Source: Curtobacterium flaccumfaciens pv. betae (GTDB lineage Bacteria; Actinomycetota; Actinomycetes; Actinomycetales; Microbacteriaceae). From it: 64,000 nucleotides of DNA. The translations under genes were made by a program, and so were the position numbers. The stretch is taken from assembly GCF_026241855.1 (NCBI RefSeq), contig NZ_JAPJDC010000001.1, forward strand, positions 3,162,001 to 3,226,000. The letters are read 5' to 3'. The notes beneath the pieces were generated by a model. It ran no database searches. It saw nothing but the letters and a program-made list of their open reading frames with translations, and was not told the DNA's origin. Shown here piece after piece: positions 26,688-40,994 of the stretch (position 1 is its first letter; each line of letters opens with the position of its first letter).

Positions 26688-26735
26688 GGGATTCCATCGT
26701 ACGTCAGAACTGCCGGGAGGCGCGACCTCGGTTCG

Positions 26736-26817
26736 CCGTGGGCGTTGCGCGGGTGGGTGGCCGGGTCCCCGGGCCGTGGGCGTTGCGCGGGTGGGTGGCC
26801 GGGTCCCCGGGCCGTGG
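26736..26817. repeat. 38-bp perfect tandem repeat, 2.2 copies
   Basis: Units at 26736-26773 and 26774-26811 are identical, followed by six bases of a third unit. The array is between recN and pyrG, upstream of the pyrG promoter, and is G-rich on the plus strand. A GGGAGGCGCG motif sits beside it at 26715-26724. Confidence 0.9.
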
Positions 26818-28562: not shown

Positions 28563-29486
28563 TCATCGGTCGTCCTCGTCGCTCTGGGGGCCGCGCCACC
28601 CGGCGACGGGCAGCTGGAACTTCGCGACCAGGCGGTCGGTGAACGGAGCGTCCTTGAGGCGGGCGACACGCACCGGGTCGGGCGAACGCCGGACCTCGAC
28701 ACGGGCACCCGGGGGCAGGTCGTGGGTCCGTCGGCCGTCGCACCAGAGGACACCGACGCCGCTCGTGCGCCGCAGGACCTCGATCGCGAGCGTGCAGTCC
28801 GGCCCGACGACGATCGGACGGGCGAACAGGGCGTGGGCGCTCAGCGGCACCATGAGCAGCGCGTCGACATCCGGCCACACGATGGGGCCACCACCGGAGA
28901 ACGAGTACGCCGTGGAGCCGGTCGGGGTCGACACGACCACGCCGTCGCAGCCGAAGGACGACAGCGGGCGGCCGTCGACCTCGGTCACGACCTCGAGCAT
29001 CCGCTCCCGCGAGGCCTTCTCGATCGTGGCCTCGTTCAGCGCCCAGCTCGAGTAGACGATCTGGTTGCCGACGACCACATCGACCTGCAGGGTGACGCGT
29101 TCCTCGACGTTGTACTCGCCGGACAGCGCGCGCTCGACCGTCTCGGACAGGCCGTCACGCTCGCTCTCGGCCAGGAACCCGACGTGCCCGAGGTTCACCC
29201 CGATGAGCGGAGCGCCGGTGTTGCGCACGAGTTCCGCCGCGCGGAGGATCGTGCCGTCGCCACCGAGCACGATGACGATCTCGAGCTGGTTCGGCTGGAC
29301 GTCGACGCCGAGGATGTCGACCTTGCCGACCGACGCTTCGGCACGACGGATGTCGGCGTACTCGTCGAAGGGCATGACGGGCGTGAGACCGGCTGCGTGC
29401 AGGAGGTCGCAGACCTCGACCGCAGCGTCGATCGAGTCACGGCGACCCGTGTGGGACACGAGCAGGATGTGCCGTTCGTCACTCAT
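28563..29486 (-). CDS. nadK: NAD kinase
   Basis: A 307-residue enzyme that phosphorylates NAD to NADP. The GGDGT motif is at residues 75-79 and the second substrate motif is seen in ALNEATIEK and CDGVVVSTPTGSTAYSFS. The ATG at 29484-29486 overlaps the tlyA stop by four bases (ATGA). The order tlyA-nadK-recN is conserved in actinobacteria. Confidence 0.95.
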   Translation of the reverse strand: MSDERHILLVSHTGRRDSIDAAVEVCDLLHAAGLTPVMPFDEYADIRRAEASVGKVDILGVDVQPNQLEIVIVLGGDGTILRAAELVRNTGAPLIGVNLGHVGFLAESERDGLSETVERALSGEYNVEERVTLQVDVVVGNQIVYSSWALNEATIEKASRERMLEVVTEVDGRPLSSFGCDGVVVSTPTGSTAYSFSGGGPIVWPDVDALLMVPLSAHALFARPIVVGPDCTLAIEVLRRTSGVGVLWCDGRRTHDLPPGARVEVRRSPDPVRVARLKDAPFTDRLVAKFQLPVAGWRGPQSDEDDR

Positions 29487-30295
29487 GAAGACCCTTCCGT
29501 GAGTTCGGTCGCCCGGACTCTCCATTCTGTCGGATTGCCCCCGACACCGCGCTGGAAGCGGGCCAGGTACTCGTGGTTGCCGTGCGTCCCGACGATCGGG
29601 GACGCGGCGAGCCCACTGGTGCCGAGGCCCAGGTCCCACGCCGCCCACAGCACGTTCATGAGCGCGTCGTTCCGGAGTCCGGCGTCGTGCACGATGCCCT
29701 CGCGCACACCGCCACGGCCCACTTCGAACTGGGGCTTCACCAGGAGCACGAACTCGTCCGCGGGGACGGCTTCGGCCAGCGCCGGCAGCACGAGTCGGAG
29801 CGAGATGAAGGACAGGTCCCCCACCACCAGGCTCGTCTCGACGGCGGCACCGTCGAGCGCCAGGTAGTCGGCGCGCGTGAGGTTCCGCGCGTTCGTCCCC
29901 TCGACCACGGCGACGCGTTCGTCGAGTGCGATGGTGGGGTGCAGCTGCCCGTGGCCCACGTCCAGCGCGATGACCCGGCGCGCGCCGCGCGCGAGCAGCA
30001 CCTGGGTGAACCCGCCGGTGCTCGCACCCACGTCGAGCACGACCCGGCCGGCGGGGTCCACGTCGAACGCGTCGAGTGCGCCGACGAGCTTGCGGGCCGC
30101 ACGCGAGACCCATTCGTCCGCGGCGTCGACCTCGATGTCCGCGTCGGACGCGATCGGCGTCGACGGTTTCAGGACGGCACGGCCGCCCACGAGCACCCGG
30201 CCGTCCTGGATCAGCTTGCTGGCGACGGTGCGCGACCGTGCGAGCCCGCGTGCGGCGAGGAGGGCGTCGAGGCGGACCGGGGTCGCGTCGTGCAC
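29483..30295 (-). CDS. tlyA: TlyA family rRNA 2'-O-methyltransferase / hemolysin-like protein
   Basis: A 270-residue protein. An N-terminal S4 RNA-binding domain (VRLDALLAARGLARSRTVASKLI) is followed by an FtsJ-like methyltransferase with motif I DVGASTGGFT and GDLSFISLRLVLPAL. TlyA methylates ribose in 16S and 23S rRNA, and its loss gives capreomycin resistance in mycobacteria. The GTG at 30293-30295 is chosen; another GTG at 30316 would add seven residues and overlap the upstream gene. Confidence 0.9.
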   Translation of the reverse strand: MHDATPVRLDALLAARGLARSRTVASKLIQDGRVLVGGRAVLKPSTPIASDADIEVDAADEWVSRAARKLVGALDAFDVDPAGRVVLDVGASTGGFTQVLLARGARRVIALDVGHGQLHPTIALDERVAVVEGTNARNLTRADYLALDGAAVETSLVVGDLSFISLRLVLPALAEAVPADEFVLLVKPQFEVGRGGVREGIVHDAGLRNDALMNVLWAAWDLGLGTSGLAASPIVGTHGNHEYLARFQRGVGGNPTEWRVRATELTEGSS

Positions 30296-30486: not shown

Positions 30487-31476
30487 CTACTCGCCGCCGT
30501 ACAGCTGCGGGTCCACGTCGAGGCCGTAGATGGCCAACCCGGACTCCCAGATGAGCGTCGAGCCGGCACGGAGCCGATCGATGTCCGTCCCGGCATCGAG
30601 CACCCGGACGACGTGCCCGCGCATCGCCACCGTCGAGGTACCGACGGTCACGTACCGGGTGCCGTCCTCGTCCTCGCGCCGCGCCGTCTCCGGGTAGGGC
30701 TGGGACAACCCCCGGAGGTCTTCGAGCACGTAGGTGGGACGCGAGCGCTGGTCGGCCGCGAGCACCTGCTTCGCCTTGTCGATGCCGGTGAGCACGAGCA
30801 CGCTCGGGATACCGGCGTCGTTCGCACCCTTGATGTCGGTGTCCAACCGGTCCCCGATGAACAGGGTGTGACCGCCGCCGAAGCGCTCGAGGGCCGTGTC
30901 GAAGATCGGCCGCTCGGGCTTGCCGGCGACCACGGGCATCCGGCCGACCGCCTGGTGCACGGCGGACACGAGTGTGCCGTTGCCGGGTGCGATGCCCCGC
31001 TCGACCGGGATCGACCAGTCCATGTTCGTGGCCACCCACGGCACGTCCGGGTCCGCCAGTGCGAACGAGGCCTCGGCCAGTTCCTTCCAACCGAGGTCCG
31101 GCGAGAAGCCCTGGATGACCGCGGCCGGGGAGTCCTCGGCACTCGAGGTGACCGTGAACCCGGCTGCCTCGACGATGCTCGACAGGCCGAGCCCGCCGGT
31201 GACCAGGACGGTCGACCTGGCCGGCACCAGGGTCGCGAGCAGCTGGACGCCGGCCTGCGACGAGGTCACGACGTCACCCTCGGACACCTCGAGCCCGTAC
31301 CGCTCGAGGTGCTCGGCGACGTCGATCGGGCGGCGCGACGCGTTGTTCGTGATGTAGCCGACCCGCGCCGTGAGCGACGCCCGGGTCAGGGCCTCGACCG
31401 CGTGCGGGATGGCGTTGCGGCCCCGGTAGACGACGCCGTCGAGGTCGGTGAGGACCACGTCGACGCCGTCGGTCAA
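30487..31476 (-). CDS. HAD-IIA superfamily phosphatase (NagD-like)
   Basis: A 329-residue sugar- or nucleotide-phosphatase-type protein. Motif I is TDLDGVVYRG near the N terminus, motif II is YITNNASR, and motif IV with the cap is KPERPIFDTAL and GDRLDTDIKGAN. The substrate is unknown. The TTG at 31474-31476 is chosen for lack of better choices; GTG at 31456-31458 would shorten the protein by six residues. It follows the repeat protein by 13 bp. Confidence 0.85.
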   Translation of the reverse strand: MTDGVDVVLTDLDGVVYRGRNAIPHAVEALTRASLTARVGYITNNASRRPIDVAEHLERYGLEVSEGDVVTSSQAGVQLLATLVPARSTVLVTGGLGLSSIVEAAGFTVTSSAEDSPAAVIQGFSPDLGWKELAEASFALADPDVPWVATNMDWSIPVERGIAPGNGTLVSAVHQAVGRMPVVAGKPERPIFDTALERFGGGHTLFIGDRLDTDIKGANDAGIPSVLVLTGIDKAKQVLAADQRSRPTYVLEDLRGLSQPYPETARREDEDGTRYVTVGTSTVAMRGHVVRVLDAGTDIDRLRAGSTLIWESGLAIYGLDVDPQLYGGE

Positions 31477-31489
31477 GGCCGCAGACTGC

Positions 31490-33517
31490 TCAGTCGGCTG
31501 CGGAGCCGTCGACGTCGCGGGGGTTGTCGTCGTCGATCTCGCCGGGCTCGTCGGCTGCGGAAGTGTCGTCGTCGAGGTCGTCGAGGGCGGGTTCGTCATC
31601 GAGGTCGTCGGCGGATTCGTCGGCGCCGTCGAGTTCGTCGGTCGCGACGTCGTCGGCTCCGAGGTCATCGGCGTCGTCGTCTCCGGCGTCTCCGTGTTCT
31701 TCGACTTCGAGCGTTTCCTCGACCACATCAACTGTCTCCCAAGCGTTGTCGTCCGCGATTTCGGCGAGGGCCGCTGCCGCGCGGTCCACACGGGCCCACC
31801 ACTCGTCGGCCTCGTCCTGTCGACCGAGCTCCTCGAGCGTGGCCGCGTAAGCACTGTAGAGCGCCGGGGACCACGTGTAGGCGGTGGACGGGTCGAGCTG
31901 TGGAATCTCCAGCTCACCGAGGGCGGCTGTGGGGTTCCCGAGGTCGAGACGAGCGCCGGACATGGCGATCGCGAGCTCGACCTGCACCGGGGTGTCGAGG
32001 GCCGAGCGCTCGACCGAGCGACCGAGCTCCAGTGCCCGCTCCGGACGGCCCAGGCCACGCTCGCAGTCCACCATCATCGGGAGCTGGTCGTTGCGACCGG
32101 AGATCCGACGGTAGGTGCGGAGCTCCCGGAGCGCGGTGGCGAAGTCGCCGAGGCGGTACGCGGTGATCGCGGCCGTCTCCCGGACGACACCGACACGACC
32201 GGCACGACGAGCAGCGCTCAGAGCGTGCTGGTTGGCCGTCTCGGGGTCGTCGTCGACGAAGAGCGCAGCGGCCACGAGGTGACGCGCAACCCAGTCGGCG
32301 TTGTCCTTGCTGAGGGTCTTCAGCTCCATCCGGGCCGCAGGGTCGAGGTCGCGCGCCTGGATCTCCTCGGGGATCTCGGGGTCGTCGTGGCGCGGACGGA
32401 TCGACTTCGTGCCGTAGGGGTCGCGGTCTTCCCAGTCGTCGCGCGCGGCCTCACCGAAACGGGCGCCGGCGTGACGGCTGCCGTCACCGAAACGACGACG
32501 GTCCTCACCGCCGTCGCGGGCCGGGCGGTCCGACGAACCGCCGCGGAACGGACGGTCGGACGAACCACCACGGGCCGGACGGTCGGACGAACCACCACGG
32601 TACGGGCGGTCGGAGGAACCACCACGGTAGGGGCGGTCGCCGTCACGAGCGGGACGATCCGAACCACCACGGTACGGGCGGTCGCCATCTCGGGCGGGAC
32701 GGTCCGAACCACCACGGTACGGGCGGTCCCCGTCACGAGCCGGGCGGTCAGAGCCACCACGGAACGGACGGTCGCCATCACGTCGCGGACGATCTGAGCC
32801 GCCCTGGAAGGGTCGGTCTCCGTCACGGCGCGGCCGGTCCAACGACCCGCCACGGTACGGGCGGTCACCATCACGAGCAGGACGGTCCGAGGAGCCGCCA
32901 CGGTACGGACGGTCGCCATCACGAGCGGGACGGTCCGACGATCCGCCACGGTACGGACGGTCGCCATCACGAGCGGGACGGTCCGACGATCCGCCACGGT
33001 ACGGACGGTCGCCATCACGAGCGGGACGGTCCGACGATCCGCCACGGTACGGACGGTCGCCATCACGGCGCGGACGGTCCGAGCCGCCCTGGAACGGGCG
33101 GTCACCGTCACGAGCCGGACGGTCTGAGCCACTACGGAACGGACGATCGCCATCGCGCCGCGGACGATCGGCACCGCGCGGACCATCGCCGCGCGGCGGC
33201 CGGCCGGAGTCACCACGGTCGCCCTGCCACGACGGACGGTCGTTCCGGTCGCCGGAACGGAACGGACGGTCGCCGTCGCGACGCGGAGCGCTGTCCCGTC
33301 GAGGCGCGCCGTCACGGAACGGACGGTCTCCACCCTGCGGACGATCGCGACGGTCGCCTTCGCGGCGCTCGAACTCGCGAGGACCGGACGACCAACGACC
33401 ATCACTCTGGCCGTCCCGACGCGGAGCGCCGTCGCGACGCGGGAACCGGTCGCCGTCCCGCCGGGGTCGATCTCCGCGGTCCCCGTCGTTCCGCCGCTGA
33501 TCGTCGTCGTTCGCCAC
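31490..33517 (-). CDS. Polyampholytic repeat protein: Arg/Asp/Gly-rich array, helical TPR-like domain, acidic tail
   Basis: A 675-residue protein with three parts. Residues 1-335 are disordered and very rich in Arg, Asp and Gly, holding about 11 units of 15-16 residues with consensus SDRPARDGDRPYRGGS and four shorter 9-residue versions. Residues about 385-590 form a helical TPR-like domain (ALSAARRAGRVGVVRETAAI, PERALELGRSVERSAL, ALYSAYAATLEELGRQDEADEW). The last ~75 residues are almost all Asp, Glu and Ala. The array resembles RGG-type RNA-binding regions. Some Microbacteriaceae homologs are, as I recall, annotated as primosomal proteins without evidence. The GTG at 33515-33517 has AGGAG upstream. 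It lies just after the rRNA operon and heads the HAD-tlyA-nadK block. Confidence 0.85.
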   Translation of the reverse strand: MANDDDQRRNDGDRGDRPRRDGDRFPRRDGAPRRDGQSDGRWSSGPREFERREGDRRDRPQGGDRPFRDGAPRRDSAPRRDGDRPFRSGDRNDRPSWQGDRGDSGRPPRGDGPRGADRPRRDGDRPFRSGSDRPARDGDRPFQGGSDRPRRDGDRPYRGGSSDRPARDGDRPYRGGSSDRPARDGDRPYRGGSSDRPARDGDRPYRGGSSDRPARDGDRPYRGGSLDRPRRDGDRPFQGGSDRPRRDGDRPFRGGSDRPARDGDRPYRGGSDRPARDGDRPYRGGSDRPARDGDRPYRGGSSDRPYRGGSSDRPARGGSSDRPFRGGSSDRPARDGGEDRRRFGDGSRHAGARFGEAARDDWEDRDPYGTKSIRPRHDDPEIPEEIQARDLDPAARMELKTLSKDNADWVARHLVAAALFVDDDPETANQHALSAARRAGRVGVVRETAAITAYRLGDFATALRELRTYRRISGRNDQLPMMVDCERGLGRPERALELGRSVERSALDTPVQVELAIAMSGARLDLGNPTAALGELEIPQLDPSTAYTWSPALYSAYAATLEELGRQDEADEWWARVDRAAAALAEIADDNAWETVDVVEETLEVEEHGDAGDDDADDLGADDVATDELDGADESADDLDDEPALDDLDDDTSAADEPGEIDDDNPRDVDGSAAD
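32514..33131 (-). repeat. Coding tandem repeat array of 45-48 bp units
   Basis: Encodes the SDRPARDGDRPYRGGS units. Units between about 32880 and 33065 are identical or nearly so over 48 bp, which indicates recent duplication or gene conversion. The array is continuous coding sequence with no spacers. Confidence 0.85.
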
Positions 33518-33654
33518 CGTTGCTCCTCATCGCGTGCCCGGTGCAGTGCCTCGGGCGTTCGTCCGCTGTGTCGTTGTGTTGGGTGCCGCGTCGGTCACCC
33601 GACGTCGGCCTCCAGTCCATCACGAACCAGAGCCGGCGTCGAGCGAACGGCGGC

Positions 33655-33730
33655 GAAAACAGAAATGGCCACCGGCCCCGACCGAGAACGAGGGTTTCCC
33701 CTGCGAATTCTCGATGGAGGGCCGATGGCC
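33655..33730 (-). terminator. Terminator of the rRNA operon
   Basis: On the minus strand, GGCCATCGGCCC (33719-33730) pairs with 33667-33679, with an inner stem CGAGAA/TTCTCG. A T-rich tail ATTTCTGTTTT follows. It lies 19 bp past the 5S gene. Confidence 0.75.
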
Positions 33731-33748
33731 ACATCTTTCATACGTTAA

Positions 33749-33867
33749 GTCCGGCGGCGTCCTACTCTCCCACAAGGTCCCCCTTGCAGTACCATCGGCG
33801 CTGAGAGGCTTAGCTTCCGGGTTCGGAATGTGACCGGGCGTTTCCCTCTCGCTATGACCACCGGAAC
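33749..33867 (-). rRNA. rrf: 5S ribosomal RNA
   Basis: About 119 bases with the conserved GGTCATAGCG start region, the CCGAACCCGGAAGCTAAG loop and the GCGCCGATGGTACTGC segment. Ends are placed from the terminal helix (CCGG and CCGG arms) and may be off by a few bases. Confidence 0.95.
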
Positions 33868-33981
33868 ACTCTCGACCAGATCATGCATTTGGTCTCAAAG
33901 CTGTCCCAGCTACCATCTCCCGTGAAGAAGACAGAGCGGTGTATTCAGTTTCGATTCCCGATCGTCTGTCGGGAACCACAA

Positions 33982-33994
33982 AGTGGACGCGAGC
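33982..33994 (-). other. Downstream arm of the 23S processing stem
   Basis: AGTGGACGCGAGC on plus; its complement is in the 16S-23S spacer at 37228-37240, so the two sides of pre-23S rRNA can pair over 13 bp as an RNase III substrate. Confidence 0.65.
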
Positions 33995-34028
33995 CCGTGC
34001 AACAAGTGCACGGAAATCAGTGTGTTAT

Positions 34029-39098
<5,070 letters not shown>

Positions 39099-39541
39099 AA
39101 AAATACAGACCCAACACCCGAAGGCATCAGACCGAGTTGATTCTGACTGTTGACTGTCTACTGACAATCTTCAATCCAAAAGGAATTGCTTCATGACCCA
39201 GTCAGCAAGCCGACCAGGCACGAGGTCAATCAATAAATTGGCATTGACAATGTGCACGCTGTTGAGTTCTCAAGGACCAGACGCACTTGCTCCTCGGCTC
39301 GAGTTCGAGCTTCAGCCACAAGGCTTGTGTTCTTGGCTTGCCACCGGTGGTTCGTCGGACCCGGAGGTCCAGTGGCTCATCCCGAGGGGAGAGAACCGGT
39401 GGGCTTGTCATCCTAGGCGTCGAAGCGATTCGGCGCAAGGCCCGATCTGAACTTCAGTGGAGGATGGTCCCGCTTGAGGGCCGACGTGCTCTGGGCTTTC
39501 GCTCCAGCCGCTCCGCCGCACCTTTGGGGTGACGAGTAAGA

Positions 39542-39680: not shown

Positions 39681-40994
39681 TCAGGCGAGGGTCACGCCGG
39701 CGAGGGTCTTCTTGCCACGACGCAGTACGAGCACTCCCCCGGGCAGGGCGAGGTCGGACAGCGGGGCGGCTGGGTCTTCGGCCCTGACGTTGTTCACGTA
39801 GACGCCGCCTTGGTCGATCGCACGGCGGGCCTCGCCGAGGGACTTCACGAGTCCGGTCTCCACGAGTGCGCGTGCGACGTCCGCTCCGGAGTCGAGCGTG
39901 ACCGTGCCCGGCAGCGCGGCGATCGCCGACCGCAGGGTCTCCGGGTCCAGCGCACCGAGCTCGCCGTTGCCGAACAGCGCGGCCGCGGCATCGATCGCCG
40001 CCTGGGTCGCCGCCACCCCGTGCACGATCGAGGTGACCTCGAACGCCAGGGTCCGCTGGGCTTCTCGTCGGAAGGGTTCGTCGGCGACGGCCTGCTCGAG
40101 TCGTTCGATCTCGGCACGCGTCAGGAACGTGAACTGCCGCAGTCGGGCGATGACGTCGGCGTCCGCCGTGTTGAGCCAGAACTGGTACAGCGCGTAGGGC
40201 GAGGTCATCTCGGCATCGAGCCAGATCGCGTTACCCTCGCTCTTGCCGAACTTCGTGCCGTCGGAGTTCGTGATGAGCGGGGTCCCGAGGGCGTGCACCG
40301 TGGCACCTTCGGCACGACGGATGAGCTCGGTCCCGGAGGTCAGGTTGCCCCACTGGTCCGAGCCACCGGTCTGCAGCGTGCACCCGTACTGGCGCCAGAG
40401 CTCGCGGTAGTCGAGCCCCTGCAGGATCTGGTAGCTGAACTCGGTGTAGCTGATCCCCGCATCGGAGTTCAACCGCGCGGCCACCGCGTCCTTCTTGAGC
40501 ATCGAGTTGACGCGGAAGTACTTGCCGACGTCACGCAGGAAGTCGATCGCGGACAACGGTGCGGTCCAGTCGAGGTTGTTCACCAGCCGGACGCCGTTGG
40601 CGCCGTCCGGACTGAGGAACCGGGACACCTGTGCCTGCAACCGGGACACCCACTCCGCCACGGTCTCCGGCGTGTTCAGCGTGCGTTCGGCCGTGGGACG
40701 GGGATCGCCGATGAGACCGGTCGACCCACCCACCAACGCGAGCGGCTTGTGCCCGGCGAGCTGCAGCCGGCGCATGGTCAGGAGCTGCAGCAGGTTGCCG
40801 CAGTGCAGCGACGGCGCCGTCGGGTCGAAGCCGCAGTAGTACGTGATCGGCTCACCGTCGAGGGCCTCTTGCAGCGCGGTCTCGTCGGTCGAGACCTGCA
40901 CCAGACCGCGCCACTGCAGTTCGTCCCACACCGAGTCGAAGGCGGGGTCGTTCTGCTGGCGCGTCAGGACGTCTTGAGCGGTATCACTGGACAC
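39681..40994 (-). CDS. tyrS: Tyrosyl-tRNA synthetase
   Basis: Charges tRNA-Tyr. The 437-residue class I enzyme has the HIGH equivalent HCGN at residues 64-67, the KMSKS equivalent KFGKS near 245, and YCGFDPTAPSLH for tyrosine binding. A C-terminal S4 RNA-binding domain (ARALVETGLVKSLGEARRAIDQGGVYVNN) is complete. The GTG at 40992-40994 lies exactly six bases after TACGAT (41001-41006), a leaderless promoter, so it is transcribed apart from the arginine cluster. Confidence 0.97.
   Translation of the reverse strand: MSSDTAQDVLTRQQNDPAFDSVWDELQWRGLVQVSTDETALQEALDGEPITYYCGFDPTAPSLHCGNLLQLLTMRRLQLAGHKPLALVGGSTGLIGDPRPTAERTLNTPETVAEWVSRLQAQVSRFLSPDGANGVRLVNNLDWTAPLSAIDFLRDVGKYFRVNSMLKKDAVAARLNSDAGISYTEFSYQILQGLDYRELWRQYGCTLQTGGSDQWGNLTSGTELIRRAEGATVHALGTPLITNSDGTKFGKSEGNAIWLDAEMTSPYALYQFWLNTADADVIARLRQFTFLTRAEIERLEQAVADEPFRREAQRTLAFEVTSIVHGVAATQAAIDAAAALFGNGELGALDPETLRSAIAALPGTVTLDSGADVARALVETGLVKSLGEARRAIDQGGVYVNNVRAEDPAAPLSDLALPGGVLVLRRGKKTLAGVTLA

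Follow-up and report, generated by a model that had tools for sequence, protein, structure and literature searches.

A TPR-core protein with a disordered Arg-rich arm, encoded behind the rRNA operon of Curtobacterium, belongs to an uncharacterised actinobacterial family that may assist ribosome assembly

The gene behind the rRNA operon

What does a protein with a long Arg/Asp/Gly repeat array do when its gene directly follows an rRNA (rrn) operon? The question is raised by a window of 64,000 nt from Curtobacterium flaccumfaciens pv. betae (NZ_JAPJDC010000001.1, 3,162,001-3,226,000), and all coordinates given here are positions in this window. The open reading frame runs on the minus strand from a GTG start at 33517 to a TGA stop at 31490. 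A first-pass annotation of the sequence had described a 675-residue protein joining an Arg/Asp/Gly array, a helical TPR-like domain and an acidic tail, and the exact reading frame, the composition and the structure models all agree with that description. It had also placed the gene directly after an rRNA operon and in the same direction, as is indeed the case, with 16S, 23S and 5S genes directly upstream on the same strand. Its placement directly before tlyA was mistaken, because a HAD-IIA phosphatase gene, which starts 13 nt past the TPR gene's stop, intervenes. The order in the window is tyrS, rrn, TPR gene, HAD, TlyA, NAD kinase, RecN and CTP synthase, and the TlyA-family gene scores 191.1 bits against TIGR00478 (cut-off 185.8). 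The gap between recN and pyrG holds a perfect 38-bp tandem repeat of 2.2 copies (26735-26817). The features are as follows.

39681..40994, minus strand: tyrS, upstream of the rRNA operon
37578..39099, minus strand: 16S rRNA
34024..37151, minus strand: 23S rRNA
33749..33865, minus strand: 5S rRNA
33665..33732, minus strand: hairpin resembling a terminator, with a T-rich tract after it, in the gap from 5S to the TPR gene (fold; hairpins in relatives)
33523..33528, minus strand: Shine-Dalgarno GAGGAG, 5 nt ahead of GTG 33517 (sequence)
31490..33517, minus strand: CDS of 675 aa with disordered arm, TPR core and acidic tail (ORF and same-frame homologues)
32423..33517, minus strand: Arg/Asp/Gly polyampholyte arm, residues 1-365, predicted disordered (composition; pLDDT <50)
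32618..33169, minus strand: 12 units DRP[A/R]RDGDRP[Y/F][R/Q][G/S]G, residues 117-300, 45-48 bp period (repeat scan; pN/pS 0.13)
32510..32617, minus strand: short SDRPxRGGS-type units, residues ~301-336 (repeat scan, composition)
31748..32380, minus strand: TPR core, residues 380-590 (profile, structure models, weak Pfam TPR matches)
31493..31720, minus strand: acidic tail, residues 600-675 (composition, pLDDT)
30487..31476, minus strand: HAD-IIA phosphatase gene immediately downstream, its TTG start inferred
29483..30295, minus strand: TlyA-family rRNA (cytidine-2'-O)-methyltransferase, start approximate (TIGR00478)

The repeat array

Residues 1-365 consist of 26.6% Arg, 18.9% Asp and 18.1% Gly and carry a net charge per residue of +0.06, and the 12 RGG and 17 RG motifs of the protein are clustered. 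The 48-bp array reaches a score of 552 in TRF. It had earlier been counted as about 11 units plus four short ones; the array itself is real, and our count comes to 12 units followed by short units up to about residue 336. Between the 12 units, pS is 0.52 and pN is 0.068 in the called frame, a ratio of 0.13. Read in the two remaining sense frames the units give ratios of 4.5 and 1.6, and the three antisense frames yield 5.2, 1.9 and 0.24. Because the units differ mostly by synonymous changes in the called frame, we read the array as coding sequence under selection. An out-of-frame artefact of a GC-rich repeat, in which long reading frames occur in other frames as well, was excluded on the evidence of pN/pS, of the start with its Shine-Dalgarno sequence and of homologues in the called frame.

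The copy number of the array is variable. The window has 13 DGDRP motifs; four strains with core identities of 98.8-99.6% have 8, 9, 9 and 13. To judge from the codon pattern, then, selection acts on the amino-acid sequence of the array though its unit number varies. We infer that, in this species, a shorter basic arm has been lengthened locally into the array, and that changes in copy number are tolerated.

The TPR core and the acidic tail

Structure prediction, which had been proposed as a check of the disorder at both ends, gave the expected picture. Residues 1-376 and 591-675 of the full-length model have pLDDT below 50 except for five residues, so that confidence is limited to the core; the core predicted alone is entirely helical with a pLDDT of 87.5. 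Its helices form tandem antiparallel pairs and it resembles TPR solenoids in general. The tail (residues 600-675) contains 49% Asp plus Glu and has a net charge per residue of -0.47.

Sequence models recognise this core weakly. None of the Pfam or NCBIfam models scored above its own cut-off for the Curtobacterium protein (Pfam TPR_2 gave 16.7 bits on the core against a cut-off of 27), the best E value across 24 cores was 2.1e-4 for Pfam TPR_12, and no PDB chain matched the sequence of the Curtobacterium protein at E 0.001 or better. Precomputed Pfam TPR domains, e.g., PF12688 and PF13424, are present on some mycobacterial relatives, and membership in the TPR superfamily rests on the fold together with these domains. 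Among 64 cores from the class, 55 columns hold one residue in at least 85% of sequences, and R441, R446, E447, R471, D484 and R487 are 100% conserved. These class-invariant charged residues suggest a fixed binding site, a putative assignment by conservation; its ligand cannot be read from the TPR fold.

Distribution and orthology of the family

The nearest relatives of the Curtobacterium protein are found in Curtobacterium, and its core is widespread. A profile built from 24 Microbacteriaceae cores (76 invariant columns) matched 95 of 99 genomes in the order, 139 of 148 in the class and 45 of 119 in a phylum sample, these samples overlapping; outside the class, 35 of the 109 genomes of the phylum sample have the core. 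An orphan gene or a Curtobacterium novelty is ruled out by the 139 class genomes with a core. The nine class genomes in which the profile found no match include two single-contig genomes of 1.2 Mb that are 99-100% complete (G199 and G224), and the gene is therefore dispensable there. The family code of these two also contains genomes with a match. One core, from a metagenome-assembled genome titled 'Acidobacteria bacterium' (L053), falls inside Microbacteriaceae, and the bin is probably mislabelled.

The family extends to Mycobacterium. The profile match in one genome (G164, E 2.0e-60) is 100% identical to Mycobacterium lacus P0208 of 276 aa (locus L139), and at this locus HAD, tlyA and nadK matches stand behind the TPR gene. 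The order TPR - HAD - tlyA - nadK - recN is thus recovered, with L139 covering the part from TPR to nadK. In M. tuberculosis the corresponding phosphatase is presumably Rv1692, which we take to be a HAD phosphatase. The operon of this organism is given as lprJ, Rv1691, Rv1692, Rv1693, tlyA, ppnK and recN in PMC3072309. Rv1691 and its counterpart MSMEG_3754 share the TPR annotation and the place ahead of Rv1692, Rv1693, tlyA, ppnK and recN, and from this shared gene order and the M. lacus member they are likely the mycobacterial orthologue. The M. lacus member differs from the Curtobacterium protein in its short Arg/Gly-rich arm, of 79 residues with the automatic start or about 51 if the public start is right, and in its 15-residue tail.

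MSMEG_3754 (Rv1691) is described as a TPR protein in Table 1 of PMC7092591. There it belongs to the high-confidence hits of a pull-down with antibody against RNA polymerase, in a study that detected 275 proteins together with the crosslinked beta subunit; the FLAG-tagged MSMEG_3754 is reported to have recovered no DNA. It is also listed in a ClpC1 interactome (PMC10433963). The published passages found to name Rv1691 or MSMEG_3754 give it neither a function nor RNA binding. Some members bear the public names 'primosomal protein' and '23S rRNA pseudouridine2605 synthase', neither of which suits the core; our guess is that the latter may come from similar low-complexity arms. The Curtobacterium gene is a member of an unnamed, uncharacterised actinobacterial family already present in databases.

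Linkage to the rRNA operon

A 5S gene lies at most 350 nt upstream of the TPR gene in 36 of 36 readable Curtobacterium loci (48 in all) and 30 of 30 in other Microbacteriaceae (33 in all). Among the readable rows of the class it does so in 29 of 35 (40 in all), and in other classes in 6 of 15 (18 in all), the other nine of these 15 being without a 5S within that distance. The 40 class rows stand for 38 family codes (L151, L160 and L161 belong to one genus, and L151 and L160 to one genome), six further codes with class matches were left out (f23, f25, f27, f29, f37 and f41), and 18 of the 35 other-class matches were fetched. Among the class exceptions, L139 (M. lacus) and L124 contain no rrn in the DNA that was read, and L127, L145, L147 and L159 have it 2-4 kb away. 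On the other side of the gene, all 80 Microbacteriaceae rows have a HAD match beginning no more than 150 bp downstream, as do 15 of the 40 class rows (15 of the 35 with a HAD match). Outside Microbacteriaceae the rrn link therefore looks tighter than the HAD link.

In two species of one genus the rRNA operon and the TPR gene are duplicated as one block (G119: L151, L160; G182: L161, L182). The copies are 99.98% identical over 6392 bp in one species, the second species showing 99.0% over 6311 bp, and the duplicated blocks end within 30 bp of the TPR gene's stop. Both genomes have two rrn copies each, and both copies stand beside TPR gene copies. In a third species of this genus (G191) the gene is matched once against two copies of rrn, the second of which sits at the end of a contig, and the genome of the window has three rrn copies and one TPR gene. 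In another family, one genome (G128, an assembly of 110 contigs) carries two gene copies that are more diverged (L143, L183), each with a 5S close upstream. Mycobacterial rrnB has been placed downstream of tyrS, according to PMC10218544, and this placement fits the neighbourhood in the window. A limited search of openly licensed literature found no printed account of the rrn linkage of this family.

Transcription between the 5S gene and the TPR gene

A hairpin separates the 5S gene from the TPR gene. In the window it was folded as a 104-nt stretch (-54 kcal/mol, z -6.2), and in relatives the 90 nt past the 5S fold at z -2 or lower in 97 of 101 loci. A stricter scan, which additionally required five T among the ten bases that follow, calls a terminator in 64 of 95 loci; a consensus scan covering 31300-34100 gave a single terminator-like site against 1.0 expected from shuffles, and both results lessen the force of the hairpin as evidence of termination. 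No promoter-like site emerged from the consensus scan of this interval. Simple co-transcription with the rRNA was considered and, with a terminator-like hairpin predicted between the 5S and the gene, is unlikely. The gap from the 5S to the picked start is at most 100 nt in 34 of 101 loci, three of these being Curtobacterium rows whose start is probably mispicked; so short a gap could hardly hold a promoter of its own, so that read-through, or a promoter overlapping the hairpin, may apply. The relatives' starts were set by an automatic Shine-Dalgarno rule and make such gaps, as well as the arm lengths below, approximate; in L125 and L133 the start chosen first lay inside the 5S or ahead of it. 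By eye, -10-like hexamers can be seen past the hairpin in L146, L178, L048 and L056 among others, and that of L178 is so near the start codon that the leader would be very short or absent.

Conservation of the arm and the tail

A survey of Microbacteriaceae homologues for repeat number and position, as had been proposed, had a split outcome: the position behind rrn is kept, whereas the repeats are not, since RGG motifs number 0-22 per protein among 80 rows, none occurs in several orthologues, and the repeated words vary from genus to genus. Arm length is equally fluid. On a tree of 77 cores (two of the 18 other-class rows were left off, their cores being short), an arm of at least 150 residues needs at least 15 changes, a rough figure because 34 of the 73 inner branches are poorly supported. 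Orthologues with arms below 100 residues exist, including a mycobacterial one, and they approach the case that the first-pass annotation had itself named as counting against its reading, namely homologues without the array. Seven of the 40 class rows combine an arm of at most 100 residues with a tail under 30.

What persists is charge. With arm and tail borders taken from the BLAST or profile match, the arm is net positive in 58 of 58 Microbacteriaceae rows, 39 of 40 class rows and 16 of 18 other-class rows, and the tail is net negative in 58 of 58, 40 of 40 and 10 of 18, respectively; 22 of the 80 Microbacteriaceae rows were dropped from these counts as 5'-open or containing masked bases. Clearly acidic tails (net below -0.1) number only four of 18 outside the class. 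Arginine is chosen over lysine, at Arg:Lys 4162:195 in the arm versus 1417:209 in the core of Microbacteriaceae rows. Aromatic residues recur together with Arg in many arrays, and five class arms of at least 100 residues lack aromatics (L141, L151, L159, L160 and L161), as does the arm of L078. Composition, then, is kept and sequence is not. The interpretation of the first-pass annotation is partly supported, resting now on the conserved TPR core and the link to rrn instead of on the RGG array.

Possible function and alternatives

The likeliest reading, which we hold tentatively, is that the TPR protein is an adaptor associated with rRNA or ribosome assembly, its mechanism being inferred. It rests on the conserved charge of the arm and its use of Arg, on the acidic tail, and on the place of the gene behind rrn and among translation-system neighbours, which include the rRNA methyltransferase TlyA and tyrosyl-tRNA ligase. 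The selection on the repeat units, the invariant core residues, the wide distribution of the core, the duplication of rrn and gene as one block and the reported pull-down of MSMEG_3754 with RNA polymerase (PMC7092591) point the same way. In such a scheme the TPR core would hold one specific partner, the Arg-rich arm would make weak multivalent contacts with rRNA, and the acidic tail would shield the arm or hold basic clients, e.g., ribosomal proteins. The earlier suggestion of an RNA- or ribosome-associated scaffold thus keeps its direction, through the rrn linkage, the net-positive Arg arm and the acidic tail, and loses the RGG array as its defining part. Several observations pull against the adaptor: the rrn neighbourhood may be passive synteny, the terminator-like hairpin stands between the 5S and the gene, loci without a nearby rrn occur in the class and in other classes, one genome (G191) has one gene match for two rrn, clearly acidic tails are few outside the class, nine class genomes have no match, and FLAG-MSMEG_3754 recovered no DNA (PMC7092591).

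Known systems offer partial likenesses. RGG/RG-motif proteins are a class of RNA-binding proteins; they share an Arg-Gly-aromatic low-complexity arm with the Curtobacterium protein, whose arm differs in also containing 19% Asp and whose RGG motifs are missing from several orthologues. The sNASP histone chaperone (7v6q, 7v1m) also counts among the closest known systems. Acl4 combines a TPR fold with acidic residues, and we know of no Arg-rich arm in it. In fungi it serves ribosomal protein L4 as a dedicated chaperone (PMC5296656). The likeness to Acl4, one of architecture, would lie in a TPR core and the proposed holding of a basic ribosomal protein; the differences are that Acl4 is eukaryotic and that no solved structure matches the Curtobacterium protein in sequence at E 0.001 or better.

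A less likely reading is that the gene is a passive neighbour, i.e., a cytosolic TPR adaptor of an unrelated pathway held in place by old gene order, with arms lengthened by slippage in GC-rich genomes. Repeat copy number that varies between strains with nearly identical cores, the many changes of arm length on the tree and a terminator-like hairpin between 5S and gene all speak for it, and no published experiment that we found links the protein directly to RNA. Against it stand a pN/pS of 0.13 between units, a charge sign and a preference for Arg over Lys that hold across differing arrays, the co-duplication of rrn and gene in two species and class rows in which the 5S is adjacent far more often than HAD.

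A bolder form of the preferred adaptor reading, which we consider quite improbable as a whole, makes the gene a protein partner of rrn. An assembly-factor gene behind the terminator of one rrn copy could then be inherited or duplicated with the rrn unit; the Arg-rich arm would bind nascent rRNA, the TPR core and acidic tail would deliver basic ribosomal proteins, and the protein would be a bacterial counterpart of nucleolar assembly chaperones whose arm length is tuned by repeat turnover across lineages.

Slightly more doubtful still is a factor on the transcription side, one that rides RNA polymerase, perhaps at rrn operons, with its arm touching nascent rRNA. It draws on the place of the mycobacterial orthologue on the high-confidence RNA polymerase beta list; however, annotations for the ribosome and for RNA binding are over-represented in the pull-down set as a whole, and the FLAG-tagged protein brought down no DNA (PMC7092591). 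Least probable of all is a condensate scaffold built by head-to-tail contact of basic arm and acidic tail, for although class rows carry opposite net charges on two disordered ends and aromatics with Arg recur in many arrays, class members with both a short arm and a short tail, long arms without aromatics and the scarcity of clearly acidic tails outside the class all argue against it.

Significance

The family is a good candidate for a missing actinobacterial factor of ribosome assembly or rRNA handling, kept behind rrn in most of the class families sampled and in part of the phylum, in a group that includes antibiotic producers and the tubercle bacillus. Its differing arms form a natural series in which one may ask what selection preserves in a disordered arm, be it charge, the preference for Arg over Lys, aromatic residues or length, and what it leaves free.
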